Shown here: piece after piece, positions 38,964 to 57,091 of the stretch
Layout: each line of letters opens with the position of its first letter
How positions within the stretch are numbered: position 1 is the stretch's first letter
From: Gracilimonas sp.
GTDB taxonomy: Bacteria; Bacteroidota; Rhodothermia; Balneolales; Balneolaceae
DNA length: 64,000 bases
NCBI RefSeq assembly: GCF_040218225.1
Contig: NZ_JAVJQO010000008.1
Location: forward strand, 682,001 to 746,000
Direction: 5' to 3'
The notes under the pieces: generated by a model
The model's input: the letters and a program-made list of their open reading frames with translations, nothing else
What the model was told of the DNA's origin: nothing
Databases searched by the model: none
Made by a program: the position numbers and the translations under genes

Positions 38964-39926
38964 TTATCCGAGGAATCCAAGTACAGACTGTGGTCCCATG
39001 TTAGCTTGCGCCAGCGATGATGTTGCAGTCTGCTGCAGAATCTGAAGCTTAACAGACTTACTTTGTTCTTTCGCGAAGTCGGTATCCATGATACGTGACT
39101 TGGCAGATTCGTTCGCACTGATTGACTCAGAAAGGGTTTCTTCACGTACAGAAAGAGAAGACTGAGTAATACCAATGTCGTTCACTCGGTTCGACATTTC
39201 GTCAATTGCACTGTCAACTGAGCTTAGGAAGCTACGGAAGTCAGATGAAGTTGCTGTAGCAGCAAAAGTCAATGCACCTTGTCCACTGGTTGTAGCCGCA
39301 GTAGCTGAGATAGCTCCACCTGCAGCAGCTCCACCACCGGCGGTTGTTGTAGCACCCAGAGAAGCATCTCCGGAAGCAGCAAACAGCTCACCCACGTTTA
39401 CAGCGTCGATAGAAGTGCTGATGGTGTCAGAAGCACGCTCACCTACCTGGAAGGTAAGATCAAGTGATCCGGACATATCGCCAGCAGCGTCACCGTTCAG
39501 GAGGTCGAAGTCCTGGAATACAGTCTGGTTAGCAATTTCGTTGATGTCGTCGCCAAGAGCTTTGATCTGGTCGCCGATGTAGCCACGCTCGGTGTCGCCT
39601 AACGTGTCGTTGGCAGCCTGGGTAGCCAGACCTTTCATCTCAACAAGACTATCCATGATGGTGTCGAAGCTGGACTCGGCAATGTCGAGTACAGACTTGG
39701 CATCACCTACGTTCTGAAGGGCTTGCTCCAGACCGGCTGTTCTACTTTTTAATTTGGTTGCAATCGAGTACCCGGCAGCATTGTCTTCTGCTTTGTTGAT
39801 TTTAAGACCGGTTGACATACGCATACGGCTGTCGGCCAGGTCACGGTTTACTCGGTTCAGTGATAACTGTGAGTCTAACGACTGAACGTTAGTATTTACT
39901 CTGTTTAAATCTCCAAAACTTGCCAT
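38964..39926 (-). CDS. fliC: Flagellin, copy 1
   Basis: A 320-residue filament subunit. The N-terminal D0/D1 part (LNRVNRDLADSRMRMSTGLKINKAEDNAAGY) and the C-terminal D1/D0 part (NESAKSRIMDTDFAKEQS, ending MGPQSVLGFLG) are conserved. The centre (about residues 170-235) is short and very rich in Ala, Thr, Ser and Gly, offering many possible O-glycosylation sites. A second gene (40531-41490) is almost identical. A sigma-28-like promoter lies at 39980-40007. The neighbouring glycosyltransferase operon suggests that the protein is glycosylated. Confidence 0.96.
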   Translation of the reverse strand: MASFGDLNRVNTNVQSLDSQLSLNRVNRDLADSRMRMSTGLKINKAEDNAAGYSIATKLKSRTAGLEQALQNVGDAKSVLDIAESSFDTIMDSLVEMKGLATQAANDTLGDTERGYIGDQIKALGDDINEIANQTVFQDFDLLNGDAAGDMSGSLDLTFQVGERASDTISTSIDAVNVGELFAASGDASLGATTTAGGGAAAGGAISATAATTSGQGALTFAATATSSDFRSFLSSVDSAIDEMSNRVNDIGITQSSLSVREETLSESISANESAKSRIMDTDFAKEQSKSVKLQILQQTATSSLAQANMGPQSVLGFLG

Positions 39927-40530: not shown

Positions 40531-41490
40531 TTAACCAAGGAATCCAAGTACGGACTGTGGTCCCATGTTAGCTTGCGCCAGGGATGAAGTCGCAGTTTGT
40601 TGTAAGATCTGAAGTTTTACAGACTTACTTTGTTCTTTCGCGAAGTCAGTATCCATGATACGTGACTTGGCAGATTCGTTCGCGCTGATCGACTCAGAAA
40701 GAGTCTCTTCACGTACAGAAAGAGAAGACTGAGTAATACCAATGTCGCTCACTCGGTTCGACATTTCGTCAATTGCACTGTCAACAGAGCTCAGGAAGGT
40801 ACGGAAGTCAGTAGCTGTAGCAGATGCGTTGAAAGAAAGAGCACCTTGTCCACTGGTTGTAGCCGCAGTAGCTGAAATCGCAGCACCTGCAGCAACACCA
40901 CCACCGGCGGTTGTTGTAGCACCCAGAGAAGCATCTCCGGAAGCAGCAAACAGCTCACCCACGTTTACAGCGTCGATGGATGTGCTGATGGTATCAGAAG
41001 CACGCTCACCTACCTGGAAGGTAAGGTCAAGTGATCCGGACATGTCGTCAGAAGCACCGTTCAGGAGGTCGAAGTCCTGGAATACAGTCTGGTTAGCGAT
41101 TTCGTTGATGTCGTCGCCAAGAGCTTTGATCTGGTCGCCGATGTAGCCACGCTCGGTGTCGCCTAACGTATCGTTGGCAGCCTGGGTAGCCAGACCTTTC
41201 ATCTCAACAAGACTATCCATGATGGTATCGAAGCTGGACTCGGCAATGTCGAGTACAGACTTGGCATCACCTACGTTCTGAAGGGCTTGCTCCAGTCCGG
41301 CTGTTCTACTTTTCAATTTGGTTGCAATCGAGTACCCGGCAGCATTGTCTTCTGCTTTGTTGATTTTAAGACCGGTTGACATACGCATACGGCTGTCAGC
41401 CAGGTCACGGTTTACTCGGTTCAGTGATAACTGTGAGTCTAACGACTGAACGTTAGTATTTACTCTGTTTAAATCTCCAAAACTTGCCAT
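40531..41490 (-). CDS. fliC: Flagellin, copy 2
   Basis: A 319-residue flagellin identical to copy 1 over the first 140 or so residues and the whole C-terminal end. Differences are confined to the centre (for example ASDDMSGS for AAGDMSGS, GGGVAAGAAI for GGGAAAGGAI, SFNASATATDFRTF for TFAATATSSDFRSF) and VSDIG for VNDIG. The nucleotide sequences are likewise nearly identical in the termini, which suggests recent duplication or gene conversion. It has its own sigma-28 promoter and terminator. It ends the minus-strand flagellin pair, next to the glycosylation operon. Confidence 0.96.
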   Translation of the reverse strand: MASFGDLNRVNTNVQSLDSQLSLNRVNRDLADSRMRMSTGLKINKAEDNAAGYSIATKLKSRTAGLEQALQNVGDAKSVLDIAESSFDTIMDSLVEMKGLATQAANDTLGDTERGYIGDQIKALGDDINEIANQTVFQDFDLLNGASDDMSGSLDLTFQVGERASDTISTSIDAVNVGELFAASGDASLGATTTAGGGVAAGAAISATAATTSGQGALSFNASATATDFRTFLSSVDSAIDEMSNRVSDIGITQSSLSVREETLSESISANESAKSRIMDTDFAKEQSKSVKLQILQQTATSSLAQANMGPQSVLGFLG

Positions 41491-41704: not shown

Positions 41705-42916
41705 CTACATTGCCTGATCAGCAATAGCCCGGACAACGGGGACTTGCAAAGACGGTCGGATTTCCATTTTACGGAAGTCGTTTATAGCATCTATAATATA
41801 GTCCTGCTCTTCAACGGTTAATTCGTAATAAAAAGGAAGCCGTACAAGGTTATGGGAATAAAGATCTGTGTAAGGCAACGTTCGTCCGTCGTGTCTATCC
41901 TGAAAGAACTTTGATGTATGTAGAGACTGATAGTGAAAAACGCTCAAAACATTCCGCTCTTTTAAATAAGCGATCAGTTCATCCCGCTGCCGGGGATTTC
42001 TGCAAACCAGGTAATACATATGTCCGTTATTGGTGGCATAATCAGGAATACCCGGCTGACGAATTCCCAGTCTCTTGCACACACCCTCCAATCCTTTTTG
42101 ATATCGGTTCCAGATACACATTCTCTTTTGTTGAATACGAATCAGGTTCATCAGTTGTGCATATAGAAAAGCTGCATTTAATTCGGAAGGTAGAAATGAA
42201 GAACCGATATCCACCCAACCGTACTTATCTACTTCTCCGCGAAAGAATGCCGTTCGGTTGGTGCCCTTTTCCCAGATAATTTCAGCTCGTTCGGCAAAGC
42301 GGGCATCATTTATAGTCAGCATCCCTCCTTCGCCGGCCATAATATTTTTGGTTTCGTGGAATGAGAATGTTCCCAAATGTCCAATCGAGCCCAGCGGACT
42401 GCTAATTCCATCCGCATGCTCATAATAGCTGTTAATGGCCTGGGCAGCATCTTCAACCACAAACAAGTTATGTCGATCTGCGATATCCATCACCTTATCC
42501 ATATCACAAGCTACACCGGCATAGTGAACTACCACAATTGCCTTCGTTTTTTTATTGATAAGCTCTTCAATCTTATCCTCATCCATTCCCGGGTGATCTT
42601 TTCTCGAATCCACAAACCGAATAACAGCACCACGCAAAACAAAAGCATTAGCTGTGGAAACAAAAGTATAGGACGGCATGATGATCTCATCACCGGGTTC
42701 CACATCCAGCAATATAGCCGCCATTTCGAGAGCATCCGTGCAGGATGTTGTAAGCAAACACTTTTCAAAACCAAACTGTCGCTCAAAAAACCGATGAATC
42801 TTCTGAGTGTACTTTCCATTCCCGGAAATCTTCCCAAAATCTACCGCATCCTGAATGAACTCGAGCTCGTTGCCGGTTATAAATGGTTTGTTGAAAGGAA
42901 TTTTGTAATTACTCAT
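41705..42916 (-). CDS. DegT/DnrJ/EryC1/StrS sugar aminotransferase (WecE/RffA-like)
   Basis: With the ATG at 42916 (MSNYKIPFNKPFITGNELEF) the enzyme has 403 residues. The PLP lysine lies in GHLGTFSFHETKNIMAGEGG; DEIIMPSYTFVSTANAFVLRG and VVEDAAQAINSYY are also typical. The closest familiar type is dTDP-4-amino-4,6-dideoxygalactose transaminase (WecE/RffA), which makes TDP-Fuc4N. The neighbouring acyltransferase and GT56-type transferase fit the same pathway (TDP-Fuc4NAc made and transferred). It overlaps the acyltransferase gene by eight bases and is last in a four-gene operon. Confidence 0.85.
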   Translation of the reverse strand: MSNYKIPFNKPFITGNELEFIQDAVDFGKISGNGKYTQKIHRFFERQFGFEKCLLTTSCTDALEMAAILLDVEPGDEIIMPSYTFVSTANAFVLRGAVIRFVDSRKDHPGMDEDKIEELINKKTKAIVVVHYAGVACDMDKVMDIADRHNLFVVEDAAQAINSYYEHADGISSPLGSIGHLGTFSFHETKNIMAGEGGMLTINDARFAERAEIIWEKGTNRTAFFRGEVDKYGWVDIGSSFLPSELNAAFLYAQLMNLIRIQQKRMCIWNRYQKGLEGVCKRLGIRQPGIPDYATNNGHMYYLVCRNPRQRDELIAYLKERNVLSVFHYQSLHTSKFFQDRHDGRTLPYTDLYSHNLVRLPFYYELTVEEQDYIIDAINDFRKMEIRPSLQVPVVRAIADQAM

Positions 42917-43724
42917 AGGGCACAAATTTTCCTTTTTCGGGAAGCAAATACTTCATGAATTTCACTTCTTCCGTGGAGCGCTTTTTGGTATAAGTTCTGG
43001 AAGCCACATCGAAGTAGCTGACCTCGTCATCGAAATTGAATTCCGTAATATTGCTTACCACCTTTACCTTCTCTTCTGAAATTCCTGCCTCTTTCACGTA
43101 TATGTTCATTCTCTCCATCTTTTCATCGAGACTCACATTCTCAAACTGTGGGCCGATTTTTTCTGAAAGAGAACGAGCCGGAGAGCCCGCATAAATTTGG
43201 TTGTACTCCATGTTTTTAGTCACCACGGAGCCAACCATCGCCATCGATTTATCTTCTGCTGTAATGGGGGAAACAATACAGTGGCCCACAAACCATACGT
43301 CGTTGCCTACCGTCAATGAGTTTTCGCTCAAAAACCGGCAGCCTTCCAGGGTATCTCCATACTTGATGTGCGACCACAGCTGAGAGTGTGCCCCTATCCC
43401 GCAGTTATTTCCAATGGTCGTCCCACCAATACTGTCGATGATAGAGTATTGCCCGACCCAGGCGTTATGCCCTATAACACAGGGTTTGTAGCCATGCACA
43501 TTGGTGTTGTGATGAATTTTGGAGTAATCCCCCAGCTCAAAGTGGTCACAGATAATCTGCACATTCTTCCCAATGTAACAGTTATCTCCAATTTTGATGG
43601 TTGTGGCTGGTCCGTTCAATCCCATAATCACTGCCGACTCTTCTATAACTGTGCCTTCTCCAACTTCGATTTCAACGGCATCGATATTCGGGTAGGTTGC
43701 AGTTGCTTGCACTATTGAATCCAT
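42909..43724 (-). CDS. Left-handed beta-helix (hexapeptide repeat) acyltransferase
   Basis: A 271-residue protein with many hexapeptide repeats forming a left-handed beta-helix (for example VGEGTVIEESAVIM, IKIGDNCYIGKNVQII, CVIGHNAWVGQYSII, TTIGNNCGIGAHSQLW, LTVGNDVWFVGHCIV). The repeats are followed by a C-terminal tail of about 90 residues ending LLPEKGKFVPYE. It probably acetylates a sugar amine made by the adjacent aminotransferase. WecD of the E. coli pathway is a GNAT protein, so this would be an analogous enzyme. Acyl donor and acceptor are not known. Confidence 0.75.
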   Translation of the reverse strand: MDSIVQATATYPNIDAVEIEVGEGTVIEESAVIMGLNGPATTIKIGDNCYIGKNVQIICDHFELGDYSKIHHNTNVHGYKPCVIGHNAWVGQYSIIDSIGGTTIGNNCGIGAHSQLWSHIKYGDTLEGCRFLSENSLTVGNDVWFVGHCIVSPITAEDKSMAMVGSVVTKNMEYNQIYAGSPARSLSEKIGPQFENVSLDEKMERMNIYVKEAGISEEKVKVVSNITEFNFDDEVSYFDVASRTYTKKRSTEEVKFMKYLLPEKGKFVPYE

Positions 43725-43725
43725 C

Positions 43726-45417
43726 CTAATTCACCAGCGCATGTTCAGTTATCCTTTCTCTGATTGTGCTGCAGGAGGTTACCAGATCTTTTGCCCGGGT
43801 CTTTAAGCCAAATTCATTAATGATAATTTGTTGATTTCGGGTTTTCTGAGGTTGAGACTTTCTCAGAAAAGATCGTATAGATGTAGCTTTTTTAAATTCT
43901 TCAAAACCCGATACACCCAAGCCATATTTTCTCAACATTTCCCAGGTTGGGTTCATCTGCTCTTTTTCACCCACCGTAATCTTCTTTTTCAGAACAGTGG
44001 TATTCCCGCTGTATAACGACAAAAGCATATTCCCAATGGCCTGTTGGCGATTATGAGCAGTGATCAACATATCTGAAGACCCTACAAAAGTCCGGTACTC
44101 ATCCGGTTCTATAAAATTCTTGATGAGCTTCACAAAATCAGTCATTCCGGCTGCATTCAACCATTTCAGGATCGCATTCTCATATTCCGGAATTAAGTTA
44201 TAGGACACCGGAAGCAGGATATCATAGTCTCTCACATCTTTCTTCGTCCTTAGTGCCTCCAAAATCTCGATATGATTATTTGAATAGTCACCTGAGTTCC
44301 CCACAATAATTCTGGGACGATCATTACTTTCGGTTTCCTCCATAATATCCCCGTAAAGCCCCGGATAAGGATAACCAAATCGGAAAGTCGGGCAGTTTCC
44401 GTAATGTTTCTTAAACACTTCAACATCGCCTTCAACCAATGAGTGGATACTGTCGATATGTTCAACAATATCTACTATCGGCTCATTTACTTTGATGGGA
44501 TTGTAGAGATCACCACCCCAGATAATCCATCCAATATGTTTTTTTGAACCGATTTCTTTGATCAGTTTTTTCTGCCAGCTAAAAAACAGTCCATGAACAA
44601 ATAATGCGTCCACATCAGTATCCAGGCATCGGTTAATAATGGCTGGAAAATCGTACTCATGATTAAACCAGGCAGCGTGTTCATTACTGCTTAAATCAGG
44701 TTTATAGTCTTCAATAGCCCAGTGTGATTCTACAAATAAAAGATGCTGCTGTTCATATTCCTCGTTCACAAAAGCCAGCATATCCGACTGTGACTTCGCA
44801 TACAAATGGTTGAAGCAAAGGTGAATGTATTTTCCCTCTCCGGGCCTGCACTTTCTTCCAAATGATGTATAGAGCTTATCTTTCTCTGCCCTTGCTTCTT
44901 CTAAGTCAGGCTTCATATGGAGGGTGATATCGTGCAGCTCCATTGCTTTCTTGAGATCCCCTTTTTCGGAATAAATTCTGGCTAATTTATAGGCAATAAC
45001 ATGATTCTTTGGGTCCAGTTTATTAGCGATGGTAAAACACTGAATGGCTTTTTCTGAATCAGACTGCCCCCGGTAAATTTCACCCATAAACATCCAGGCC
45101 TCCAGCAAATGCTGATCTAATTGAATGGCCGCTTTTCCATAACGCTCTGCCTGTTCAAAATCTGAAAGAGCGTTAAAACATTTGGCGATTTGTAAGTAGG
45201 CATGGGGATTTTCAGCATGCCTGGTAAGAGAAGTTTCAAAGTAAACTACTGCCTTCTCATAGCTGGCTTTAACCATGTGGGCAATTCCCAGAAAGTGATC
45301 GATCAGCCAATGCTCATTGCCCTGTTCTGCCAAGAAGTTAAGCACCTTTATCGCTTCATCAGCATCGGGTTGTGCCCGATCCAATAAAAGCCGGACCTTT
45401 TCTAATTCTGATTTCAC
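43726..45417 (-). CDS. TPR-GT56 fusion: TDP-N-acetylfucosamine-type glycosyltransferase (WecF-like)
   Basis: A 563-residue protein. Residues 1 to about 190 are tetratricopeptide repeats (ALSDFEQAERYGKAAIQLDQ, QCFTIANKLDPKN). The remainder matches the GT56 family of WecF: HIGWIIWGGDLYNP (about residue 299; WecF FFWHIWGADLYE) and IIVGNSGDYSNNHIEILEAL (about 372; WecF ILVGNSGDRSNEHIAALRA). WecF transfers Fuc4NAc to a lipid-linked sugar and has no TPR. The TPR part is closely similar to that of the upstream GT41 protein, suggesting that both recognise the same polypeptide, perhaps flagellin. It lies one base before the acyltransferase gene and four after the GT41 gene. Confidence 0.8.
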   Translation of the reverse strand: MKSELEKVRLLLDRAQPDADEAIKVLNFLAEQGNEHWLIDHFLGIAHMVKASYEKAVVYFETSLTRHAENPHAYLQIAKCFNALSDFEQAERYGKAAIQLDQHLLEAWMFMGEIYRGQSDSEKAIQCFTIANKLDPKNHVIAYKLARIYSEKGDLKKAMELHDITLHMKPDLEEARAEKDKLYTSFGRKCRPGEGKYIHLCFNHLYAKSQSDMLAFVNEEYEQQHLLFVESHWAIEDYKPDLSSNEHAAWFNHEYDFPAIINRCLDTDVDALFVHGLFFSWQKKLIKEIGSKKHIGWIIWGGDLYNPIKVNEPIVDIVEHIDSIHSLVEGDVEVFKKHYGNCPTFRFGYPYPGLYGDIMEETESNDRPRIIVGNSGDYSNNHIEILEALRTKKDVRDYDILLPVSYNLIPEYENAILKWLNAAGMTDFVKLIKNFIEPDEYRTFVGSSDMLITAHNRQQAIGNMLLSLYSGNTTVLKKKITVGEKEQMNPTWEMLRKYGLGVSGFEEFKKATSIRSFLRKSQPQKTRNQQIIINEFGLKTRAKDLVTSCSTIRERITEHALVN

Positions 45418-45421
45418 AATA

Positions 45422-48346
45422 TTATTTGTTTAGAATCCTGTTGTTGATGTACTTGATGGTCCCAACTTCACAAGGAGCTGATACTCCTGATGCATACACG
45501 CTGAATCCGGATAGAATGGCGTCGATCTCCCGACGATCTGCTTCCGAATGATATTCCAGCATAATAAAGCCGGTGTTGATGAGCAGATCTTTCATGCCTT
45601 TAAGAATAGAAACTTCAGCCCCTTCGGTGTCAATTTTGAGCACGTCAATCTTGTTGATTCCTTTCTCAGCAAGGGCTTCTCCGCTTTTCTGCATCTTAAC
45701 AGCAACCTCATGTCCGCCTTTCATGTGAAAAGTAGTTGAAGACTGCCCAGTATTCCTCGGGTGCTGAAACAAATTGATTTCACCGTTCTTATCGCTCAGG
45801 GCCACCTGGTTAATGGAAATATTTTCAAGGTCTTTCGTATTGTGTGCCAAAAGCGGAAATACCTGTGGATTGGGCTCAAAACTGTAGATCTGGCAATCGG
45901 GATTCCACTGCCGGGCATATAATGAAAAAGACCCAACATTCCCCCCTATATCAACAACCACACTGTTCTTATTCAGCTTAAAAACTGAAGGAAGTCCATA
46001 CTCATGATCTTCAAATATATTCCTTAACCTGAAAAGCTCAGATTCCGGAATGGCCAAAGTCAATGGTTCCTCATACTTCAAACCCTGAGTATTCACTATG
46101 GCCTCTACCACCTCTGAGGGAGTATCTTTGAACTTCACAAGAGACTTATTTACATAAATCCCCTTCTTCAACGCTTTGTTTTGTTTTCCGTTTTGAAGTG
46201 ATTCAGGATGGGTTTCAGATTCTTTTTTTTTCTGTGACACCCAAATATGATCCTGCCATTCTCCTTCGGATAAATGCTTTTCATATCCTTGCACTCTCTG
46301 AAGCCACATTTTACGGAAAGCATCCGCCAGGTTGCGGGCAAAGCGTTGAGCATCGCATACCGGAGAGCTTAATAAGCGCCCCCGAAGTTCAGCTCTTAAC
46401 TTTGATAGTTGATCAACATCACCGGCAAGAGAAACTGCTTTTTGTATATAGTCTTCCCAGTTGTCAGTCACCCATTCCGGAAAACCCGCATTCGTCAAAT
46501 GAGAAGTGGAGTGCCGCCCGGCAAAAGTAGGTCCTGAATTGGTAATTACCGGCACGCCCATCCATAAAGCCTCGATGGTTGTTAATCCACCGGAATACGG
46601 CCACGGATCCAGCGCGATATCAATTTTGTTGTAGCATTCAAGCAGTTCATTATGGAGTGAATATCCCTCAAAAATCACCCTGTCTTCCTCAATATCGCGC
46701 TCCGCCAGGTGTTGGGTAATTCGCTCCCTAACCAATTCCGTATCGTACTGCTTGCTCTTGAGAAAAAGACGGCTAGCAGGAACTTGCTTCAGAATTTCTG
46801 CCCACTTAGACAAAAGCTCAGTGTTAATCTTGGTAGGGTTATTGAAACACCCAAAAGTGATGTATCCATTTTGGGTAACAGGAGCTTCTGCTACCTCAAT
46901 ATCATAGTTTGGAAGGGTATAACAGACATAATCGTCCGGCATACGAACCAATTTTTCGGTGTAGAATGGCTCTTCGCCTTCCGGAGATTCTTTAGCATCC
47001 GTCAGCAGGTAATCCATAGACTGTAACCCTGAAGTATTGAACAAACCTCCCACCCATTTTATGGTAATTGGAGCTGGTTCCAGAGCGACAGTCTTAAGAC
47101 GATTTCCGGAGGAATGCCCGGAAAGTTCGACCAGAATATCGATTTCGTCATCTTTAATAATCTGCGCAACCACCTCATCGCTGTATCCCACTACGGATGT
47201 CCACTTCGCACTGGCTTCCCGAATGCGTTTAGTGAGTGAATCGTGATAGGTATCGGTAGTGTATATATAGGTTGCAATTTCATCTTCGAGAAGTTCCTCA
47301 AGGGCGGATGTTATCATCCAGCCTACCGGGTGTTTTTTAAACCCACCCGAAATAAAACCAACACGCAGTTTCTTGTCTTTATCTTTATTGGCGGGAACCG
47401 GACGCACCGGCCGTTCTTCCGGTGCATAATATTGATCCCAAAGTGAATGAGCTTCAAAAATCTCTTCTTTGGTTCGCTTGGGATTGTAATGGATCCCCAT
47501 CAAATAGTTGGAAAGGGACTGCTGCGTTTCCGGGGCATCCTTTAATGCTCTCCGATAATTCTTCTCCGCTTCATCATATTGACCTGTTTCCACAAGGCAG
47601 AGCGCGTAATTTACCCGTACATTTCCGTCATTGGGGTAACGATCCAGCAAACGCTCATTCAATTCAATGGCCTCGCTATATCTACCCATGGCTCGATATA
47701 ACAGAGAGAGTACGCTCAACGCCAGCAGGTTTTCGCTGTCAATCTCCAGCACTTTCTGGATGGCTTCTTCCGCCCGCTCATGTTCACCAATCGACTGGTA
47801 AATCTGCGCCTTCTTGATGCCGGCATCAATCAGCTTTGGCTCCATTTGCAGGGTAATGTCGTACAATTCCAGGGCTTTCTTATAGTCACCCTGGTCGGCA
47901 TAAATTTGCCCGATATTGTAAGCAATCAGGTAATTCTTTGGGTCCAGTTTATTGGCAATGGTGTAGCATTGAATGGCTTTATTTAATAATGCCTGATCCC
48001 AGTAGAGCTTCCCCATAAACATCCAGGCATCTAACAACTCCTGGTTCAACTGTACAGCCGCTTTCCCAAATCGCTCTGCATTCTCAAAATCCTCCAGTTG
48101 ATAATAACAGCGAGCTACCAACAAATAGGTCTGGGAGTTTTGATCATGCTCACCGATGGATTTCTCGAAGTACCCGATTGCTTTCTCAAAATTGGACTTC
48201 TGCATTTGAGCAATCCCCAGGAAGTAATAGACCAGCCAGTGTTTAGACTCTCGCCTAAGCAAAGGATGAAGCAATTTAATCGCTTCATCCGGATCCGGAT
48301 ATCTCTGATCTAATAACTTTTGGGCACGCGCTAATTCTACTTTCAT
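45422..48346 (-). CDS. TPR-GT41 (OGT/SPY-like) glycosyltransferase fused to an FkbM methyltransferase
   Basis: A 974-residue three-part protein. Residues 1 to about 290 are TPRs. Residues of about 325-700 form a GT41 catalytic region of O-GlcNAc-transferase type: KLRVGFISGGFKKHPVG, whose His matches the conserved GT41 histidine; FGCFNNPTKINTELLSKWAEIL; DIALDPWPYSGGLTTIEALW (about 580). Residues of about 795-965 are an FkbM-type SAM methyltransferase (VVDIGGNVGSFSLYA, IDVLKIDTEGAEVSILKGM). It could add a sugar to Ser/Thr of flagellin and methylate it. It is the first gene of the operon, divergent from fliS. Confidence 0.85.
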   Translation of the reverse strand: MKVELARAQKLLDQRYPDPDEAIKLLHPLLRRESKHWLVYYFLGIAQMQKSNFEKAIGYFEKSIGEHDQNSQTYLLVARCYYQLEDFENAERFGKAAVQLNQELLDAWMFMGKLYWDQALLNKAIQCYTIANKLDPKNYLIAYNIGQIYADQGDYKKALELYDITLQMEPKLIDAGIKKAQIYQSIGEHERAEEAIQKVLEIDSENLLALSVLSLLYRAMGRYSEAIELNERLLDRYPNDGNVRVNYALCLVETGQYDEAEKNYRRALKDAPETQQSLSNYLMGIHYNPKRTKEEIFEAHSLWDQYYAPEERPVRPVPANKDKDKKLRVGFISGGFKKHPVGWMITSALEELLEDEIATYIYTTDTYHDSLTKRIREASAKWTSVVGYSDEVVAQIIKDDEIDILVELSGHSSGNRLKTVALEPAPITIKWVGGLFNTSGLQSMDYLLTDAKESPEGEEPFYTEKLVRMPDDYVCYTLPNYDIEVAEAPVTQNGYITFGCFNNPTKINTELLSKWAEILKQVPASRLFLKSKQYDTELVRERITQHLAERDIEEDRVIFEGYSLHNELLECYNKIDIALDPWPYSGGLTTIEALWMGVPVITNSGPTFAGRHSTSHLTNAGFPEWVTDNWEDYIQKAVSLAGDVDQLSKLRAELRGRLLSSPVCDAQRFARNLADAFRKMWLQRVQGYEKHLSEGEWQDHIWVSQKKKESETHPESLQNGKQNKALKKGIYVNKSLVKFKDTPSEVVEAIVNTQGLKYEEPLTLAIPESELFRLRNIFEDHEYGLPSVFKLNKNSVVVDIGGNVGSFSLYARQWNPDCQIYSFEPNPQVFPLLAHNTKDLENISINQVALSDKNGEINLFQHPRNTGQSSTTFHMKGGHEVAVKMQKSGEALAEKGINKIDVLKIDTEGAEVSILKGMKDLLINTGFIMLEYHSEADRREIDAILSGFSVYASGVSAPCEVGTIKYINNRILNK

Positions 48347-48552
48347 GATCGAAAATGAGTTTTCTGGTTTTCAACACCGTCTCATTTCCAAAAATGATGC
48401 CATCCCCCAAACACCCAATTCCATCCTGTTTTTTGCCTGTTTCTATAAGTGAAGGAGGGCTAAATTTTCCGTTTCAGAATATTTTTCCGCATTTCTGGTG
48501 TAATCCTTAAAGAATAACACTTCAAAAAGCCCCACTTAAAGCCTGGGCACTT

Positions 48553-48567
48553 TGGCATAGTAGTTGC
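48553..48567 (+). promoter_or_regulatory. Sigma-54 (-24/-12) promoter of the fliS operon
   Basis: TGGCATAGTAGTTGC keeps the GG and GC doublets at the spacing of the consensus TGGCAC-N5-TTGC. It lies 128 bases upstream of the fliS ATG. rpoN and an NtrC-type activator gene (51345-52757) are both in this window. Confidence 0.75.
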
Positions 48568-48633
48568 CAAAGTAAATCTGTCCGCAACAGGCGTAAGCTT
48601 GTGATGGATTGAGAAACATTAAAAACTCCTAAT

Positions 48634-48694: not shown

Positions 48695-49021
48695 ATGCGA
48701 GATCCACAATTAGTTTATCAAAAACAATCCGTCATGAATGCTTCTCCGCTGAAGCTGGTGGTGAAGATGTATGACCTGGTTATTCAGGCTACTTATCGGG
48801 AAGATCAGACAAAGGTAAAAGCCATTTTATCTGAATTGATTCAGGGATTGAACTTTGATTATGAGCCAGCCGGACAGCTTTTTGAGCTTTACAGATACTG
48901 TCAGGACCTGGCCCGGAAGCAGCGGTTTGAAGAAATCCGTGAAATTCTGGAGCCCTTAAGAGAAACCTGGGAAGAAGTTGCCAATCAAAAGCAGCCCTCT
49001 CCTTCTGTAATTCAACAATAA
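48695..49021 (+). CDS. fliS: Flagellar export chaperone FliS
   Basis: A 108-residue helical protein with the FliS pattern (YQKQSVMNASPLKLVVKMYDLVIQA). It binds the C-terminal end of flagellin in the cytoplasm and prevents early polymerisation. It is first in the fliS-fliD-fliT-like-flgM-like run, 28 bases before fliD, and is driven by tandem sigma-54 and sigma-28 promoters. Confidence 0.88.
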   Translation: MRDPQLVYQKQSVMNASPLKLVVKMYDLVIQATYREDQTKVKAILSELIQGLNFDYEPAGQLFELYRYCQDLARKQRFEEIREILEPLRETWEEVANQKQPSPSVIQQ

Positions 49022-49049: not shown

Positions 49050-50447
49050 ATGGCATCCATTTCAAGCCTTATGAGCCAGACAAGTTCTTACGAATCGTTC
49101 GTAACGCAGCTTGTCAACCTTGAAAGCCAGAAAATGCTTCGGATGGAAGTACAGGTTCGTGATGAAAAAGAGTCAAGGTCTGCTGTAGGTACTGTAAGTA
49201 AATCTATTTCTGATTTTGAGAATATTATTAAGGAGCTTGAAACTCCCGGCAACCGGTCATTTGAACCATTTAAAACTACTTCCAGTGATGATTCGGTTGT
49301 GCAGGTAAACTCCGCTTCCGGTTTGGATAATGAATCCGCTTTCAATATCACCGTAGAAAGGCTCGCTAAAAACGACACCGCCCTCTCGGAAACAATGACC
49401 GGTGCCGGCTATGAACTCGCCGCACAGGGAGATGGCTCCGTAACACTGACTATTGGTGACAAGACAGAGACAATAAATATTGTAACCACTAAAGATGATG
49501 GCAGTGGCGGCACGATAGATAGAACCAACCAGGAAATTCTGGAAGCTTTTGAAACTGAAATTGAAAGTTTATTTGGCGATGAAGCCAGTGCCAGCGTTTT
49601 TAACCTGGATGGCGAAAATATACAGTTCTCCCTCAAAAGCCTTGAAACCGGCTACGACAACCGCATTCAATTTAGCGGTGCCTCTGGTGTTTTAGCAGGC
49701 GTTACCGGGGGCATGACTCACCTCACTCCCCAAGCCGAGTTAGATGCTCAGTTTATTATTGATGGAGTGACTTTTAACCGTGCCGAAAACACGGTTGATG
49801 ATGCTATTGAAGGGCTCTCCTTCACCATGAAGAAAGCCACCGGTGTAGCCGAGCAAATGACGGTTGAGCGTGATACCGAAGCCGCAAAATCTAACCTGCA
49901 GGACTTCATCAATGCCTATAATGAAATGAACGAAACCATCAGGGAACGTACATTCATTAATCCTGAAACCGGCAACAAAGGGCCTCTTCAGGGAATGAGA
50001 TCTGTAAGGAATCTCACAATAAACTTACGCCAAACCGCGATGTTGTCTCTGGGAGGTGTAGCGGAAGGTGAAGTTGCCAGTTTTGCTGACATGGGTATTT
50101 CCTTCGAAAATAATGGCAAAATGGTCATCGAAGATTCCGATAAACTGGATCAATTGTTAAACCAAAACCCGGAGCAGATTGCCAACTTCTTTACCAGTGA
50201 AAGCTCTCCCGTTGCTATGATGAAGGCTCGTGCTGAATCTTATACTGAAGCGGATGGTATCCTATCTGCTATCGAAAGCGGACTGGATCAAAAAATTGAC
50301 AGACTGGATCGTCGTATTGCAAACGAACGAAAATACCTGGAAGAATACGAGGCTGAACAGCGCCGGATTTTTAATGAGCTTGACCTGATACTTGAAGAAG
50401 GACAAGCTCAGTTCGACGCTGTTTATAATTTCATGTCTGGTTATTAA
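49050..50447 (+). CDS. fliD: Flagellar filament capping protein FliD
   Basis: A 465-residue hook-associated protein 2. The N-terminal FliD domain (SSYESFVTQLVNLESQKMLRMEVQ) and the C-terminal FliD domain (SNLQDFINAYNEMNETIRERT; final LDQKIDRLDRRIANERKYLE, coiled-coil) are clear, with a beta-rich middle. It forms the pentameric or hexameric cap that folds incoming flagellin at the filament tip. The next gene follows eight bases later. Confidence 0.93.
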   Translation: MASISSLMSQTSSYESFVTQLVNLESQKMLRMEVQVRDEKESRSAVGTVSKSISDFENIIKELETPGNRSFEPFKTTSSDDSVVQVNSASGLDNESAFNITVERLAKNDTALSETMTGAGYELAAQGDGSVTLTIGDKTETINIVTTKDDGSGGTIDRTNQEILEAFETEIESLFGDEASASVFNLDGENIQFSLKSLETGYDNRIQFSGASGVLAGVTGGMTHLTPQAELDAQFIIDGVTFNRAENTVDDAIEGLSFTMKKATGVAEQMTVERDTEAAKSNLQDFINAYNEMNETIRERTFINPETGNKGPLQGMRSVRNLTINLRQTAMLSLGGVAEGEVASFADMGISFENNGKMVIEDSDKLDQLLNQNPEQIANFFTSESSPVAMMKARAESYTEADGILSAIESGLDQKIDRLDRRIANERKYLEEYEAEQRRIFNELDLILEEGQAQFDAVYNFMSGY

Positions 50448-51344: not shown

Positions 51345-52757
51345 ATGAAACATTCCATTCTTGTTGTTGATGATGATGAACTTCTACTTGGGTTCATGGA
51401 GGAGATATTAACAAAAGAAGGATTTGAGATTCATGCTTTTGAATCTCCTGTGAAGGCTACTCAATATCTCGAGAAAAATACCGTCGATCTGGTCATAACC
51501 GACGTTAAAATGAATGAGATGACCGGAGATGAAGTCCTTGCCACTGTAAAAAAGAAGTACCCGGACACTGGCGTTATTATGATCACTGGTTTTGGAAATA
51601 TCAACCACGCTGTGCGTGCGCTGCATAAAGGTGCTTTTGATTATATCACCAAGCCATTTAAAGCTAAAGAAATTATCTATCGGGTAAACCGCTATTTCGA
51701 TGCCGATCCCGAAGAGCGTGATAAGAAGCCCAAATCGGTAGCCCACTCTCCCCGTGAAGATAAAAAAGGCGATCTGGTTAGCCCGTTGAATAATTCTGAG
51801 GAAACTGAAAACAATTTTATTGGCAACGATCCTCAGATAAAAAAGCTTCTGAGGGTTATTCCACAAATTGCCCGCAACGCAGCCCCAGTTCTAATTCAGG
51901 GTGAAAGCGGAACCGGAAAAGAAGTTTTTGCTCATCAGATTCATGTTAACAGCAACAGAGCCCAGGGACCCTATATCAAGATAAATTGTGCCAACCTTCC
52001 TTCCGAGCTGGTTGAAAGTACACTTTTTGGGCATCTGGAAGGTTCCTTTACCGGTGCTACCTCAGACCGTAAAGGCGCTTTTGACGCTGCCGAAGGCGGT
52101 ACTTTGCTCTTGGATGAAATCACAGAAATTGAACTTAATGTTCAGGCCAAGCTTCTTCGCGTTCTGCAAGAAAATGAATTTTACCGGGTGGGAAGTCAGG
52201 AACCCGTTAAAGCCGATGTTCGCATTCTGGCAACATCAAACCGAAATATTGCCGAAGCCATTGCTGACAAACAATTCAGGGAAGATTTATACTATCGCCT
52301 GAATGTATTTCCTGTAGAAATCCCCCCTCTTCGTAATCGAAAAGGTGACATCCCGGTTTTAGCCAATTACTTTGTTGAGCATTATTCCAAAAAATACGAG
52401 TTGGAAAAAAAAGAACTTTCTGAAGAGCTCCTTGAACATTTAGTTCAGCAAGATTGGCGTGGGAATGTGAGAGAGCTAAATAATAAAATCCATCGTGGTA
52501 TTATTTTAGCTCAGGATAGTGACAATATCACGATGGAACATATCAACAATGAAATGTTTTCCAGTGTGGATGATAACCTGAATAAGGAAATTCTTTCAAC
52601 TGACCTTCCCCTTATGTCGATTGAAGACATGGAACTGCAACTCATTCAGAAAGCTCTTGAACACACGCAGGGCAACCAGAAAAAAGCGGCTAAGTTATTG
52701 GGTATTTCTGACCGTACCATCCGAAATAAGCTCAAGCAGTTGGATGATGAGGACTAG
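51345..52757 (+). CDS. Sigma-54-dependent response regulator (NtrC/FlrC-type)
   Basis: A 470-residue protein. The receiver domain (about 1-120) has the phosphoacceptor D53 in LVITDVKM. The AAA+ domain has Walker A GESGTGKE, the sigma-54 contact loop GSFTGAT (from G233; the usual form is GAFTGA) and Walker B GGTLLLDEITEI. The C-terminal Fis-type helix-turn-helix reads GNQKKAAKLLGISDRTIRNKL. It should activate sigma-54 promoters such as that at 48553. No sensor kinase is adjacent. Its stop overlaps the stop of the convergent copper-oxidase gene at CTAG. Confidence 0.93.
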   Translation: MKHSILVVDDDELLLGFMEEILTKEGFEIHAFESPVKATQYLEKNTVDLVITDVKMNEMTGDEVLATVKKKYPDTGVIMITGFGNINHAVRALHKGAFDYITKPFKAKEIIYRVNRYFDADPEERDKKPKSVAHSPREDKKGDLVSPLNNSEETENNFIGNDPQIKKLLRVIPQIARNAAPVLIQGESGTGKEVFAHQIHVNSNRAQGPYIKINCANLPSELVESTLFGHLEGSFTGATSDRKGAFDAAEGGTLLLDEITEIELNVQAKLLRVLQENEFYRVGSQEPVKADVRILATSNRNIAEAIADKQFREDLYYRLNVFPVEIPPLRNRKGDIPVLANYFVEHYSKKYELEKKELSEELLEHLVQQDWRGNVRELNNKIHRGIILAQDSDNITMEHINNEMFSSVDDNLNKEILSTDLPLMSIEDMELQLIQKALEHTQGNQKKAAKLLGISDRTIRNKLKQLDDED

Positions 52758-55063
52758 AACCTAAAAGTCAATCCTCCTCCCCAGCCAAAGCGACTGTCAT
52801 AGTTGGCCTGAACTGAAAAATATTCATTCAATAAATACTCTATTCCAGCGGTATAGGAAATATCCTGATCAAGGTTTTTATTGGCTGGAAGCTCTTCGGC
52901 AAAACCTGTATCCAGTTTGTACTCGAAATGTCCGGTGACCATTAATCTTTGCATAAGCGGAATGTGAGCGTTCAATCCAAGTTCGGGACGTAATTTGTGG
53001 TCGATGCTCAAATCGGTATCGAGAATATAAAGCAGTAAATAGCGCATCCCGATCCGGCCATGAACTTCATGTTCATTTAGTGAGTTATCGATCTTGTTTT
53101 CTGCTTTAATTCCACCATAAATCCTGAAATAATCCCCCACAAACCGCTCGTAATCCACCTTCAGCTCGTAGTTTTGATCCCAGGCATATTTTGTTTCCAG
53201 GTTAAACTGATTGTTCGTATTCGAGCTAACGAGCTCCAAACTTCCCATGTGACTTGCGCCTGTCACGGTTCCCCACGTGAAAAATTCCTTATCGTGTTTG
53301 TATAGTGTTCCCACCGGATAAGGAGCGAGCCGCTCATCACGTTCACTTCCTTCATAACTGAACACCCGGGCCATTCCTGCTTTCATGTGATACAAAATAT
53401 GACAGTGAAAAAACCAGTCTTTTTCTTCATTAGCTGCAAACTCAATGGTAATCCTGCTCATTGGAGGTACATCAACCGTATGCTTGAGCGGAGCATATTT
53501 CCCATTTCCATTCAACACCCGGAAGAAATGTCCGTGCAAATGCATAGGATGATGCATCATGGTTTCATTATTCAAAGTAACTCTGACGATTTCCCCTTTT
53601 TTGATCTTAATTTTATCAGAGGCCGAAAGCGTTTTTCCATTTATGCTCCAGGTATAGCGCCACATATTACCGGTTAAATTAAAGGTCAGGTTTCTGACGG
53701 TATCGCCGTTTTGAAACTCAGTGGGTTCCGGTGATTTCAAAACTGAATTGCTGTAACCCGTTTCCCACATCGTCATTGGTTGAGTCGGGTCGTCCATTTC
53801 ATGCATAGAATGACTCATTGCTTCCATTCCATTTTTCTCATCCATATTATGAGCAGAATGATCTTCCTGAGCCTGCATATTCTGATGCATATCATGCCCT
53901 TCATGACTATCTATTTGATGCTTGGAATGGTCGGTCATGGTCGTTTTATAGGTAGTGAACCTTCCTCTTTCCTCTCCTTCCAAACTCATATCATGACCAC
54001 CACCTCCATGCATATCTGCCATTTCCACGGCCATTTGTTGGTAGTCCGGAAATGGGATATCCGGGGCAAACGACTTTGTCCCCGCTCCGATGAAAGCAGA
54101 AGCTGACCCAGTCACATCCTGAGGTGTCGCCTGGAATTCAAGGCTCTTCCCTTCCTCCACCGTTACGATAAAATCATAAGTCTCTGCCAGTCCAATAAGT
54201 ACTTTTTCTGTTTCAACGGGTTGAACATTCAGTCCGTCTGCTGATACAATCCGTAGATTTCCACCAGCGTAGTTCAACCAAAAATAACTGGAGGCGGCTG
54301 CATTGATAACCCTTACCCTCACTTTGGTACCCAGCTCATATTGATTGTACACCTGTTCATCTTTGCCATTAACCAAAAAAGCATCGTAGGGTATATCCGA
54401 AATATGCATGCCCGGCATTTTTTGAGACCATAGCTTGAGCTGGGCTCCTAAGGTTTTACTTTGAATGGATTTCCAAACCGATGGGGCGTTACCCAGCTCC
54501 ACTCCATACCACTCATTGTGGCGTTTCAAGTTTTTCATGACCCTGGAAGGATTATCATTGGTCCAATCTGAGAGAACGAGCACTAAGTCTTCATCATAAT
54601 CCAGATTCTTTTCTTCCGGCTCTATAATAATGCTTCCGTAAATACCTTTCTGTTCCTGCAAACCTGTATGTGAGTGGTACCAATAAGTACCTGCATGAGT
54701 AAGCGGAAAATCATATGTCAACGTTTTGCCGGGACGGATGGGCGGAGTAGTCAAATAAGGAACACCATCCATGAAATTGGGCAGTAACAAACCATGCCAA
54801 TGCACTGAAGTCTCTTCACTCATGGTATTGGTAACATGAATGACGGCATGTTTGCCTTCTTTAAACTTTAATGTTGGTCCCGGTATCGTTTCGTTTATAG
54901 CCATCGCGTTTACCGATTTTCCGGCAACAGTCATTGTTTTTTCACTGATTGTAAGCCGGTAAATAAGGCTATCACCTTTAACTTCAGGTGCCAACTGTTG
55001 AGCAAAAAGAGGGTGAGTCAATAGTGCGATTACAAGAGCAATAAAAATTGAATAAGTCTTCAT
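52754..55063 (-). CDS. Multicopper oxidase (CopA-like) fused to a C-terminal outer-membrane beta-barrel (CopB-like)
   Basis: The ATG at 55063 (MKTYSIFIALVIALLTHPLFAQ) gives 769 residues with a signal peptide. Four copper motifs are present: HWHGLLLP (about 89), WYHSHTGLQ (about 127), HPMHLHGHFF (about 503) and HCHILYHMKAGM (about 554). A Met/His-rich insert (about 350-430) probably binds Cu(I). From about 604 to the end the sequence is alternating amphipathic strands (YELKVDYERFVGDYFRIYGG, ... GWGGGLTFRF) ending in a terminal Phe, as in the CopB barrel. Copper detoxification or cuprous oxidation at the outer membrane is likely. In Proteobacteria CopA and CopB are separate proteins. Confidence 0.85.
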   Translation of the reverse strand: MKTYSIFIALVIALLTHPLFAQQLAPEVKGDSLIYRLTISEKTMTVAGKSVNAMAINETIPGPTLKFKEGKHAVIHVTNTMSEETSVHWHGLLLPNFMDGVPYLTTPPIRPGKTLTYDFPLTHAGTYWYHSHTGLQEQKGIYGSIIIEPEEKNLDYDEDLVLVLSDWTNDNPSRVMKNLKRHNEWYGVELGNAPSVWKSIQSKTLGAQLKLWSQKMPGMHISDIPYDAFLVNGKDEQVYNQYELGTKVRVRVINAAASSYFWLNYAGGNLRIVSADGLNVQPVETEKVLIGLAETYDFIVTVEEGKSLEFQATPQDVTGSASAFIGAGTKSFAPDIPFPDYQQMAVEMADMHGGGGHDMSLEGEERGRFTTYKTTMTDHSKHQIDSHEGHDMHQNMQAQEDHSAHNMDEKNGMEAMSHSMHEMDDPTQPMTMWETGYSNSVLKSPEPTEFQNGDTVRNLTFNLTGNMWRYTWSINGKTLSASDKIKIKKGEIVRVTLNNETMMHHPMHLHGHFFRVLNGNGKYAPLKHTVDVPPMSRITIEFAANEEKDWFFHCHILYHMKAGMARVFSYEGSERDERLAPYPVGTLYKHDKEFFTWGTVTGASHMGSLELVSSNTNNQFNLETKYAWDQNYELKVDYERFVGDYFRIYGGIKAENKIDNSLNEHEVHGRIGMRYLLLYILDTDLSIDHKLRPELGLNAHIPLMQRLMVTGHFEYKLDTGFAEELPANKNLDQDISYTAGIEYLLNEYFSVQANYDSRFGWGGGLTFRF

Positions 55064-55100
55064 GAATAATACTTTAAGTGAAACAGGATGAAATAATTTC

Positions 55101-55132
55101 ACCTCATTACATACAGCGCCACTAAATGAGGT
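55101..55132. repeat. Inverted repeat upstream of the multicopper oxidase gene
   Basis: ACCTCATT (55101-55108) is complementary to AATGAGGT (55125-55132) over a 16-base spacer. It lies about 40 bases upstream of the multicopper oxidase ATG and downstream of the small periplasmic-protein gene, so it could be an operator or a processing hairpin. There is no T tract. Confidence 0.5.
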
Positions 55133-55173: not shown

Positions 55174-55629
55174 CTATTTCAAAAAAGTCTCGTTGACTAA
55201 AAAGATAGGAGGTGGTGAATACGAATCCGAAATAAGAATAGCGTGGTTGTCGGATTCGGTTTGAGTGGTATGATCTTCCGCAATTATCTGGACAACAGCC
55301 AAAACTTTTGCTTTCGCTTTTTGGAAAACAGGCGACTCGGTTCTAACCGGAGCTTCTTCAATACTACATGCGCAGGCAAAACCGAAATCATGCATCCCTG
55401 CAGTTGATATAACAGGATTAGCTTCATCTTTTTTGAGCTGTTGCTCCATGGGACAGTCATCATGGCCTGCCATTACAGTCACAGGCATTGCCTGACCATC
55501 ATGCACGGTTTCCATGGCATCGCACTCTTCAATAGATTTTGCATGAAGCCCTGCGGGGAGAGAAACCCCAACCAGAATACTAAAACTTAATAGCGATGCG
55601 ATAAAGCGATATGTAGCAGAAATTTTCAC
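55174..55629 (-). CDS. Small exported Cys/Met/His-containing protein of the copper locus
   Basis: A GTG start at 55629 gives 151 residues with a good signal peptide (ATYRFIASLLSFSILVGVSL, cleavage near LHA). The frame can be extended to another GTG at 55686. The mature part has Met, His, Asp and Cys groups (ECDAMETVHDG, MAGHDDCPMEQQ, ACACS) that could bind copper. No family was recognised. It lies upstream of, and on the same strand as, the multicopper oxidase and may be co-transcribed with it. Confidence 0.5.
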   Translation of the reverse strand: MKISATYRFIASLLSFSILVGVSLPAGLHAKSIEECDAMETVHDGQAMPVTVMAGHDDCPMEQQLKKDEANPVISTAGMHDFGFACACSIEEAPVRTESPVFQKAKAKVLAVVQIIAEDHTTQTESDNHAILISDSYSPPPIFLVNETFLK

Positions 55630-55732
55630 GTTACAATGATACTTCTTTTCGCAGAACTCTGAAAGCCTGATCAAAATTATGCACACTTTAGATCGAATTC
55701 TGTAAATGCCCGGTTTCGATCAGAAGCAAGCC

Positions 55733-57055
55733 TTATGCTACCTTTGCAACTAATTTCTGCGCCTGCTCTACCCTGTTCGTTTTGACTGAGGCGACAATCA
55801 GACGACGCCGATATTCATCGATTTGAGGGTTAGAGTTATAAAGCTTCCAGTACAACTCATACACAAACTCATGCCACTCATTTTGCATAAACATGGTCAT
55901 GTAATCGTTGAGCTCTTCCCGGACTTCATCGTCCATGGTTCCGGATCCTACCTCATCTTCAAACATTTTGTTGAAGAAAAATTCCGACTTTTTGAAGTCC
56001 GTAAGCTCAATCGATAGCACTAAAAGCTGACGCAGAAAAGCGCGGTCCACCTCTCCGTTTTTAACGGCAAACAGTTCGTTCAGAAGTTTGGAGGCTTCTT
56101 CCCTTAAACCGGATTTCAATGCAAGATCAGCCAGGTTAATCAAGGTCTCTTCTTCAGAGATTTTCACATCAAAGTTGGCGAGTGAATAAAGCTCGAGTCG
56201 TTCGTAATAACTATTCAGCGACTGATAGGCTTGCTTCCATTTCTTTTGCAACTGAAAGATTTTGAACTGAATCAGGTAAGGAAGACTTTGCAGGGGCTCT
56301 GCCTCCAGCGATTTCTCAGTCAGTGCCAATGCCTGAGGCCATTTATACTGTTCGGCCATACAGCTTGCCAATCCATTAACCGCTCCTAAGCGATCAAAGG
56401 GTAACAACCGGTTTTTCTTGAGTAATTGCCGGTATTGTGCAGCGGCATGCACATATTTTCCCTCTTTGAAATACTGATCTCCCTGAACCAGGTATAACTG
56501 TGGAGAGTAGGATTGAAGCGTTAATTCATCCGAAGGGTTTACTTCCTGTACCGGATTTGTTTTCCTTTCAATCATAATTGGCATGGAAGCCAACCCAATT
56601 TCATTCTGGGTAATGAACCGTGTACAATCCGGAAGATTCTTGCCATCAAATACCTGTGTTTTTCCTTTCTGAACCAGGCGAATTTGATAATGCTGATACA
56701 GCTTTTCATTCTGAGTATGAACAATCAGCGCCGGAGCCCATTTCTTTTCATTGACCTCCACCTCATTGGGAAAATCATTGAACTGAATGACTTCATCATC
56801 TTCCACAAAAAGGGTCCACTCTTTGTCAGATTGTGCCAGCATCTCATTCCAAATGTCGGATCGCTGTTCTTTTTTCTCAGAAATTCGCCATCCGATGTGT
56901 TCATCCAATTCATCCGGACGTTCGGCCGGGCAAACAACCCTGATGCTGTTGAAAATAGAATCCCATTCAGCAATCTTGTTTGAATTCAGGTATTTGATGT
57001 CGGTCAGGTAAACGACCAAATCAATCCACTCTTTGTATTTAGTTTCTTCTTTCAT
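55733..57055 (-). CDS. TPR protein with an N-terminal glycosyltransferase-like (GT-A) part
   Basis: The start is taken at the ATG 57055 (MKEETKYKEWIDLVVYLTD), 440 residues; a TTG at 57082 would add nine residues. The first 150 residues suggest a degenerate GT2-like Rossmann fold: EWIDLVVYLTD, WNEMLAQSDKEWTLFVEDDEVI (DDE instead of the usual DxD). The rest is tetratricopeptide-type helices (about 200-440; QGDQYFKEGKYVHAAAQYRQLL). It follows flgL by about 37 bases and ends the flagellar operon, so a third flagellin- or hook-associated glycosylation factor is possible. Catalytic activity is uncertain. Confidence 0.55.
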   Translation of the reverse strand: MKEETKYKEWIDLVVYLTDIKYLNSNKIAEWDSIFNSIRVVCPAERPDELDEHIGWRISEKKEQRSDIWNEMLAQSDKEWTLFVEDDEVIQFNDFPNEVEVNEKKWAPALIVHTQNEKLYQHYQIRLVQKGKTQVFDGKNLPDCTRFITQNEIGLASMPIMIERKTNPVQEVNPSDELTLQSYSPQLYLVQGDQYFKEGKYVHAAAQYRQLLKKNRLLPFDRLGAVNGLASCMAEQYKWPQALALTEKSLEAEPLQSLPYLIQFKIFQLQKKWKQAYQSLNSYYERLELYSLANFDVKISEEETLINLADLALKSGLREEASKLLNELFAVKNGEVDRAFLRQLLVLSIELTDFKKSEFFFNKMFEDEVGSGTMDDEVREELNDYMTMFMQNEWHEFVYELYWKLYNSNPQIDEYRRRLIVASVKTNRVEQAQKLVAKVA

Positions 57056-57091
57056 GGCTATTGATTCCGATTCTATTTTCAAGGTTCAGGC

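Follow-up and report, generated by a model that had tools for sequence, protein, structure and literature searches.

A TPR-GT41-FkbM protein in a flagellar locus of Gracilimonas and its modular relatives

Why should a glycosyltransferase of the OGT/SPINDLY type and a methyltransferase of the FkbM type share one polypeptide at a flagellin locus? The question is raised by a gene in the 64,000-nucleotide stretch of Gracilimonas sp. DNA analysed here, which is called the window throughout (contig NZ_JAVJQO010000008.1, positions 682,001 to 746,000; features in Table 1). A preliminary description had proposed this joining of transferase and methyltransferase and had called the fusion unusual. The first part is borne out by the open reading frame, the domain scores, the alignment of H339 and K506 and the synteny. 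The second has to be given up: a GT41-methyltransferase fusion is the norm of the flagellin-linked family in Balneolales and in Gamma- and Betaproteobacteria, and was published in 2016 for Enterobacteriaceae (PMC4875605). Within a little-studied flagellin-linked GT41 family such a fusion is commonplace; the window carries a compact local form of this family, and what is new is the FkbM2 module in the place of FkbM1, the split with a duplicated TPR, a WecF-WecE pairing that is repeated across phyla and the extent of the modularity.

Table 1. Features of the flagellar locus, in window coordinates
Feature	Position	Strand	Basis
Second flagellin gene, nearly identical to the first, 320 aa, presumed substrate	38964..39926	-	translation, flagellin family match
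Flagellin gene, 319 aa, presumed substrate	40531..41490	-	Pfam
WecE-type dTDP-4-amino-4,6-dideoxyhexose transaminase	41705..42925	-	HMM
Hexapeptide acyltransferase	42909..43724	-	Pfam, HMM
Second transferase gene, 563 aa: duplicated TPR (1-~190) and WecF-like GT56 (~191-563)	43726..45417	-	Pfam, HMM, tree
TPR-GT41-FkbM fusion gene, 974 aa	45422..48346	-	ORF, domain matches, full-length orthologues in 3 congeners
FkbM methyltransferase domain (FkbM2 type), residues ~761-974	45425..46066	-	Pfam, TIGR, tree, model
SAM motif I VVDIGGNVG, residues 797-805	45932..45958	-	alignments
GT41 (SPINDLY-like) domain, residues ~315-690	46277..47404	-	Pfam, structure-profile match, alignments
K506 codon	46829..46831	-	aligned with XcOGT K388 and SPY K665
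H339 codon	47330..47332	-	aligned with XcOGT H218
TPR region, residues 1-~290	47477..48346	-	Pfam, homologue comparison, tree
Sigma54-type -24/-12-like site, 40 bp upstream of the fusion gene, similar place in relatives	48387..48402	-	scan
Sigma54-type site upstream of fliS	48553..48568	+	scan
fliS, divergent neighbour	48695..49021	+	Pfam
fliD, divergent neighbour	49050..50447	+	translation; homologues kept beside fliS in relatives
NtrC/AtoC-type sigma54 activator, candidate regulator	51345..52757	+	translation; kept in relatives
Multicopper-oxidase-like gene	52754..55102	-	
Small ORF	55174..55686		
TPR protein adjoining flgL	55733..57082	-	

Integrity and domains of the fusion protein

The list of open reading frames with translations gives a frame of 974 residues that begins at an ATG and is free of stops. 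Three further species of the genus have full-length three-part orthologues that are 75-95% identical, and dN/dS among the congeners indicates purifying selection on all three domains, with a value of about 0.12 for the FkbM part in two comparisons; the linker and the FkbM part evolve faster than the TPR and GT41 parts. Given the full-length orthologues and the purifying selection, the fusion cannot be put down to a chimeric assembly or to chance joining, and an artefact of frame is likewise ruled out by the intact orthologues, present in four species including the window.

TPR families match the N-terminal part at residues ~40-280 with E-values of 1e-18 to 1e-29 (Pfam), and the TPR encoded by the next gene shares ~50% identity with residues 1-190. 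The central part matches Glyco_transf_41 (PF13844) at 159 bits against a cut-off of 25 (E=1.7e-46). Its nearest solved relative by sequence is Arabidopsis SPINDLY (7y4i, E=3e-98, with a best stretch of 142-688 that spans TPR and GT41), followed by TtOGT (5djs) and then by OGT/XcOGT. The counterpart of H339 is a residue which we take to be the catalytic histidine in GT41, that of K506 is presumably the donor-phosphate lysine, and the subfamily signature WVGGLFN lies at residues 431-437. GT41 is the best-supported transferase domain of the protein; PF00535 (GT2) is not among the best 25 of its 28 Pfam families. With a domain above threshold, N-terminal TPRs and both the His and the Lys in place, the protein can be assigned on its sequence to CAZy family GT41 (OGT/SPINDLY).

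The C-terminal part scores 57.9 bits against Methyltransf_21 (FkbM, PF05050; cut-off 22.7) and 104.7 bits against TIGR01444 fkbM_fam (cut-off 37.7). The preliminary description had named a lack of SAM-binding residues in structural models of this part as the observation that would speak against it, and no such lack was found. Motif I is intact, as are YSFEPN at 821-826, with the post-beta-2 acidic stretch FEPN, and LKIDTEGAE at 903-911, and an alignment shows the SAM motifs to be invariant or nearly so from the window to five of the larger relatives, here called giants, of other genera. The AlphaFold model of the FkbM part has a mean pLDDT of 87.7, and the solved FkbM protein 2py6 matches it with a Z-score of 16.1 (rmsd 2.5, 165 residues) that is tied with those of many other class I methyltransferases. 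This part is confidently modelled as a class I methyltransferase, although a shared fold is not proof of activity, and by its scores above both cut-offs, its class I SAM motifs and its predicted fold it can be counted to the FkbM family (PF05050/TIGR01444).

Which FkbM module this is can be answered by comparison with the relatives, in which GT41 is usually followed by one type, FkbM1, while another, FkbM2, is terminal. The window domain is 46-55% identical to FkbM2 modules against 22-28% to FkbM1, and in the tree it clusters with the terminal FkbM2 modules with support of 100/99, which rules out a derivation from FkbM1. In the window protein, TPR-GT41 thus runs straight into a module that the relatives carry at the terminus.

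The flagellar locus and its control

Upstream of the fusion gene, and divergent from it, lie fliS and fliD, followed by small flagellar genes and by the NtrC/AtoC-like activator. Downstream, and in the same direction, follow the genes for the TPR-WecF-like protein, the acyltransferase and the WecE-type transaminase, separated by only a few bases or overlapping slightly, and then the two flagellin genes. The flagellins are almost invariant at their start and end and differ slightly in mid-gene, and relatives carry several in tandem. The transaminase is above the cut-offs of NF008687 (546.1 against 375) and TIGR02379 (513.3 against 434.85), and its reading frame probably starts slightly after the listed TTG, by a few codons. 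Of the cut-offs applied to the WecF-like domain, it passes only that of the GT56 family (52.6 against 25, Pfam) and stays far under those of the ECA WecF equivalogs NF002756 (116.1 against 457) and NF052570 (61 against 525), so the second transferase would work like WecF without being one. The hexapeptide acyltransferase probably carries out a 4-N-acetylation, a substrate suggested by the neighbouring genes. A profile search of the genome placed RmlB (441 bits, above its cut-off) and a protein resembling RmlA (244 bits, below the curated cut-off of 360.65) about 17-20 kb before the window, and the dTDP-4-keto-6-deoxyglucose precursor is therefore probably available. Given the flagellar setting, the WecE, WecF-like and acyltransferase genes and the genomic RmlA/RmlB, the four genes look like an operon for a flagellin glycan that includes dTDP-Fuc4NAc.

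On the far side of the sigma54 activator, a multicopper-oxidase-like gene and a small ORF separate it from the TPR gene on the flgL side. Because the corresponding flagellar genes are adjacent in a relative (L034), the multicopper-oxidase-like gene looks like an insertion into the flagellar cluster. The TPR protein that adjoins flgL is kept with this cluster across the order.

The window's own sigma54-type site before the fusion gene has GG in place of GC at -12. Among 34 loci, a site with a shuffle p<0.05 was found on the transferase side in 28 and on the fliS side in 33, those on the transferase side typically lying about 40-50 bp upstream of the gene; the combined p-values overstate the case, as the loci share ancestry. 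Given that a scan of the whole window was at chance (25 sites found against 29 expected), such sites count only through their position and their recurrence in relatives. The recurrent sites and the NtrC/AtoC-like gene suggest that late flagellar genes in Balneolales may be under sigma54 control.

Relatives and the exchange of modules

Full-length TPR-GT41 relatives were found in 38 of the 128 genomes of the order, namely in 38 of the 52 that are flagellin-positive and in none of the 76 others (Fisher p 3.6e-21, shared ancestry being ignored); flagellin-positive here means matched by the flagellin_N model, which detects FlgL as well. The remaining 14 of the 52 do without the enzyme, which is thus dispensable for flagella in general. 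The usual locus of the order comprises fliD-fliS, a divergent TPR-GT41 gene and, where the contig reaches, flagellins further on.

Most of the relatives are giants of 1,147-2,068 aa, built of TPR, GT41, FkbM1, a conserved helical region and one or more variable terminal modules, which may be FkbM2, WecF-like GT56, GT2, GT1-like, other methyltransferases or kinase/APH-like domains. The middle region has no PDB match by sequence profile; in a model of FkbM1 with this region, its start is predicted to complete the FkbM fold and the remainder to be helical. The terminal slot is filled by FkbM2 in six giants and by the WecF-like module in others (genomes G022, G031 and G032), and in the four species of the window's lineage the WecF-like module resides on the second, TPR-bearing protein. 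FkbM2 occurs without WecF or WecE (loci L048, L051 and L059-L062), and WecF without FkbM2 (L036, L037 and L040). WecE, by contrast, accompanies the WecF-like module in 6/6 Balneolales loci that have it against 0/34 that do not, a count over 40 order-level loci, window excluded, in which the six positives represent about three lineages and not six independent cases. Loss and swapping of modules are frequent among the relatives. The TPR of the fusion protein and that of the second transferase group in a single clade with support of 99/100, and the simplest history would be that the N-terminal TPR was duplicated together with the splitting of a giant. The best explanation of the window pair, as judged from these comparisons, is that it represents a rearrangement of the single-chain giants with the layout TPR-GT41-FkbM1-helical-X that related species possess.

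To look beyond the order, GTDB representative genomes were scanned with a GT41-FkbM1 alignment and the patterns KWVGGL[FI]N and [IV]TFGCFNN, which yielded 80 loci. Of the loci numbered L092-L151, 58 come from Proteobacteria (among them Halomonadaceae, Pseudomonas, Bordetella and Brenneria). By manual count, a flagellin-like ORF is present in the same fragment at 57 of the 58, mostly directly upstream of the TPR-GT41 gene. The proteobacterial proteins measure 750-1,763 aa, and GT41 is followed by an FkbM-like or AdoMet domain in 52/58 (custom HMM), a figure resting partly on E-values of 1e-4 to 1e-2 where the custom matches are weak and Pfam found none; six tails have no methyltransferase by Pfam and weak ones by the custom HMM. 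In Bordetella genomosp. 13 a single polypeptide comprises TPR-GT41, a methyltransferase of diverged type, FkbM and a WecF-like domain; WecE (629 bits) is encoded next to it, and the pairing of WecF-like module and WecE seen in Balneolales thus recurs. In plasmid homologues (Azospirillum, Methylosinus, Nostoc, others), the TPR-GT41 part alone was matched, among the matches listed.

Proposed scheme, alternatives and known systems

Taking the architecture, motifs, synteny, module history and association with flagellin and WecE as observed, we infer the activities, donor, acceptor, order of steps and docking partner as follows, and give the resulting scheme a probability of roughly 0.6. The locus would be an operon for flagellin O-glycosylation. 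The fusion protein would work in the cytosol, recruited through its TPR, with GT41 placing the first sugar onto Ser/Thr of flagellin ahead of export and FkbM O-methylating one of the sugars as the glycan grows. Supplied with precursor by the genomic RmlA/RmlB, WecE and the acetyltransferase would produce dTDP-Fuc4NAc, and the WecF-like domain of the second TPR protein would add Fuc4NAc. Given that the TPR of the second protein is a duplicate of that of the first, both enzymes probably share a docking partner, which would be flagellin or a flagellin-chaperone complex. Flagellin is strongly indicated as the substrate, whereas methylation of the glycan by the FkbM part and docking by the TPR are indicated with moderate confidence. 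The donor of SPINDLY is GDP-fucose, and the GT41 domain of the fusion protein is nearer to SPINDLY than to OGT, which counts against the scheme as regards the donor. No biochemistry or mass data on any Balneolales flagellin were found in the open-access literature.

It is possible, though less likely, that FkbM instead methylates a sugar further out in the glycan, such as Fuc4NAc, or else a nucleotide sugar prior to transfer, and that the fusion only keeps FkbM near its substrate. This would fit with FkbM2 occupying a terminal slot that is also used by the WecF-like transferase, and with P. syringae, in which the terminal dideoxyamino sugar bears a 2-O-methyl group and the transferase accepts the unmethylated donor too (PMC3927599). 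However, FkbM2 is not tied to Fuc4NAc, since FkbM2 and WecF/WecE occur separately, and in the window FkbM is joined directly to GT41. A substrate other than flagellin, be it a secreted or a cytosolic protein, with the flagellar position reflecting shared regulation only, is improbable given the strict co-occurrence and synteny with flagellin in both Balneolales and Proteobacteria, even though GT41 enzymes elsewhere act on many proteins and a 32%-identical TPR-GT41 protein is encoded away from flagellar genes in a flagellin-less genome (G038/L069).

Two further readings concern the FkbM domain itself. That the methyl group is destined for flagellin, or for an amino-acid substituent of the glycan, is very improbable: FkbM-type enzymes are O-methyltransferases, chiefly of sugars and polyketides, and the operon encodes the synthesis of a dideoxyamino sugar. 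Precedents do exist in the lysine methylation by FliB and in the N-methylthreonine of C. difficile and P. aeruginosa glycans, methylation of flagellin and of glycan amino acids being described in PMC7181671 and PMC11833859. Least probable of all is that the domain is an inactive, degenerate leftover of module shuffling; such a fate would suit the frequent loss and swapping of modules and the faster evolution of linker and FkbM, but not the conservation of the SAM motifs as far as giants of other genera, the purifying selection and the confident fold.

Going further than the flagellin O-glycosylation scheme, it is tentatively suggested, at well below even odds, that the family in Balneolota and many Proteobacteria is a modular, assembly-line-like single-chain synthase, in which the TPR docks flagellin, interchangeable modules (transferase, methyltransferase, kinase-like, sulfotransferase) encode the glycan and the docking TPR is duplicated when the chain is split, as in the window, which would let each half go on loading the same substrate. 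Should the glycan prove predictable from the order and content of the modules, a single gene could be enough to read the chemistry of the flagellin glycan. The natural split with its duplicated TPR provides a ready test of the TPR as a portable flagellin-docking domain, which, if true, would be useful for protein glyco-engineering.

Precedents exist both for a single flagellin enzyme that transfers and methylates (PMC5207246) and for the joining of GT41 to a methyltransferase in a flagellin locus (PMC4875605). All but one of the GT41 enzymes of enterobacterial flagellin islands also have methyltransferase domains (De Maayer and Cowan 2016, PMC4875605), and these islands resemble the window in the GT41/SPINDLY-type enzyme within the flagellin locus and in the aminotransferases and acetyltransferases nearby; with both domains in one chain at a flagellin locus, the window protein can be placed in the same family. 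However, the islands belong to another phylum and have a diverged methyltransferase after GT41 where the window has a bona fide FkbM2-type FkbM, and the second, TPR-duplicated WecF-like enzyme is a feature of the window. No paper on a GT41-FkbM protein in Balneolota was found in the open-access literature; the present comparisons extend GT41-methyltransferase flagellin systems from Proteobacteria to Balneolota, with the same WecF-like module on the same core in two phyla. The C. difficile type B flagellin enzyme CDR20291_0242, proposed to add and methylate rhamnose (PMC5207246), likewise unites a transferase with a methyltransferase in a single polypeptide that works on a flagellin glycan, but the domains are GT2 and a PF08241 methyltransferase instead of GT41 and FkbM. 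P. aeruginosa FgtA/PA1091, a GT2 joined to a phosphotransferase (PMC11833859), is also a multi-domain flagellin glycan enzyme, and some Balneolales giants end in kinase/phosphotransferase-like domains; unlike the window protein, it has neither GT41 nor FkbM in the chain. In P. syringae, a dideoxyamino sugar is made and O-methylated on flagellin (PMC3927599) by VioA/VioB/VioT/VioM, with a dTDP-4-amino-dideoxyhexose formed via transaminase and acyltransferase, transferred to the flagellin glycan and O-methylated as proposed here, but by a methyltransferase and transferases that are separate proteins. SPINDLY, XcOGT and TtOGT (5djs) share the TPR, the GT41 fold and the aligned His and Lys, but they lack a methyltransferase, and the window family is set apart by a one-residue insertion, WVGGLFN and the tie to flagellin loci. 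The likeness to ECA WecF/WecE lies in the transaminase and in the GT56 match of the second transferase, which differs from ECA WecF in being a soluble TPR fusion that presumably acts on a protein glycan and not on lipid II of ECA.

Some minor observations concern single modules. At five loci (L038, L043, L056, L058 and L064), TPR-GT41 proteins have C-terminal protein-kinase/APH/RIO/Kdo-kinase-like domains, for which phosphorylation of the glycan is possible, as is a kinase fold with another purpose. A stand-alone FkbM2 with an internal TGA (G011:C37:193-837) is found in a genome whose giant (L053) is without FkbM2, and is possibly a remnant of module exchange. A flagellin-linked TPR-GT41 protein of Chromohalobacter (L112:11201-14515, 1754 aa) carries FkbM and a sulfotransferase (PF03567) at its C-terminal end, which suggests a sulfated flagellin glycan.
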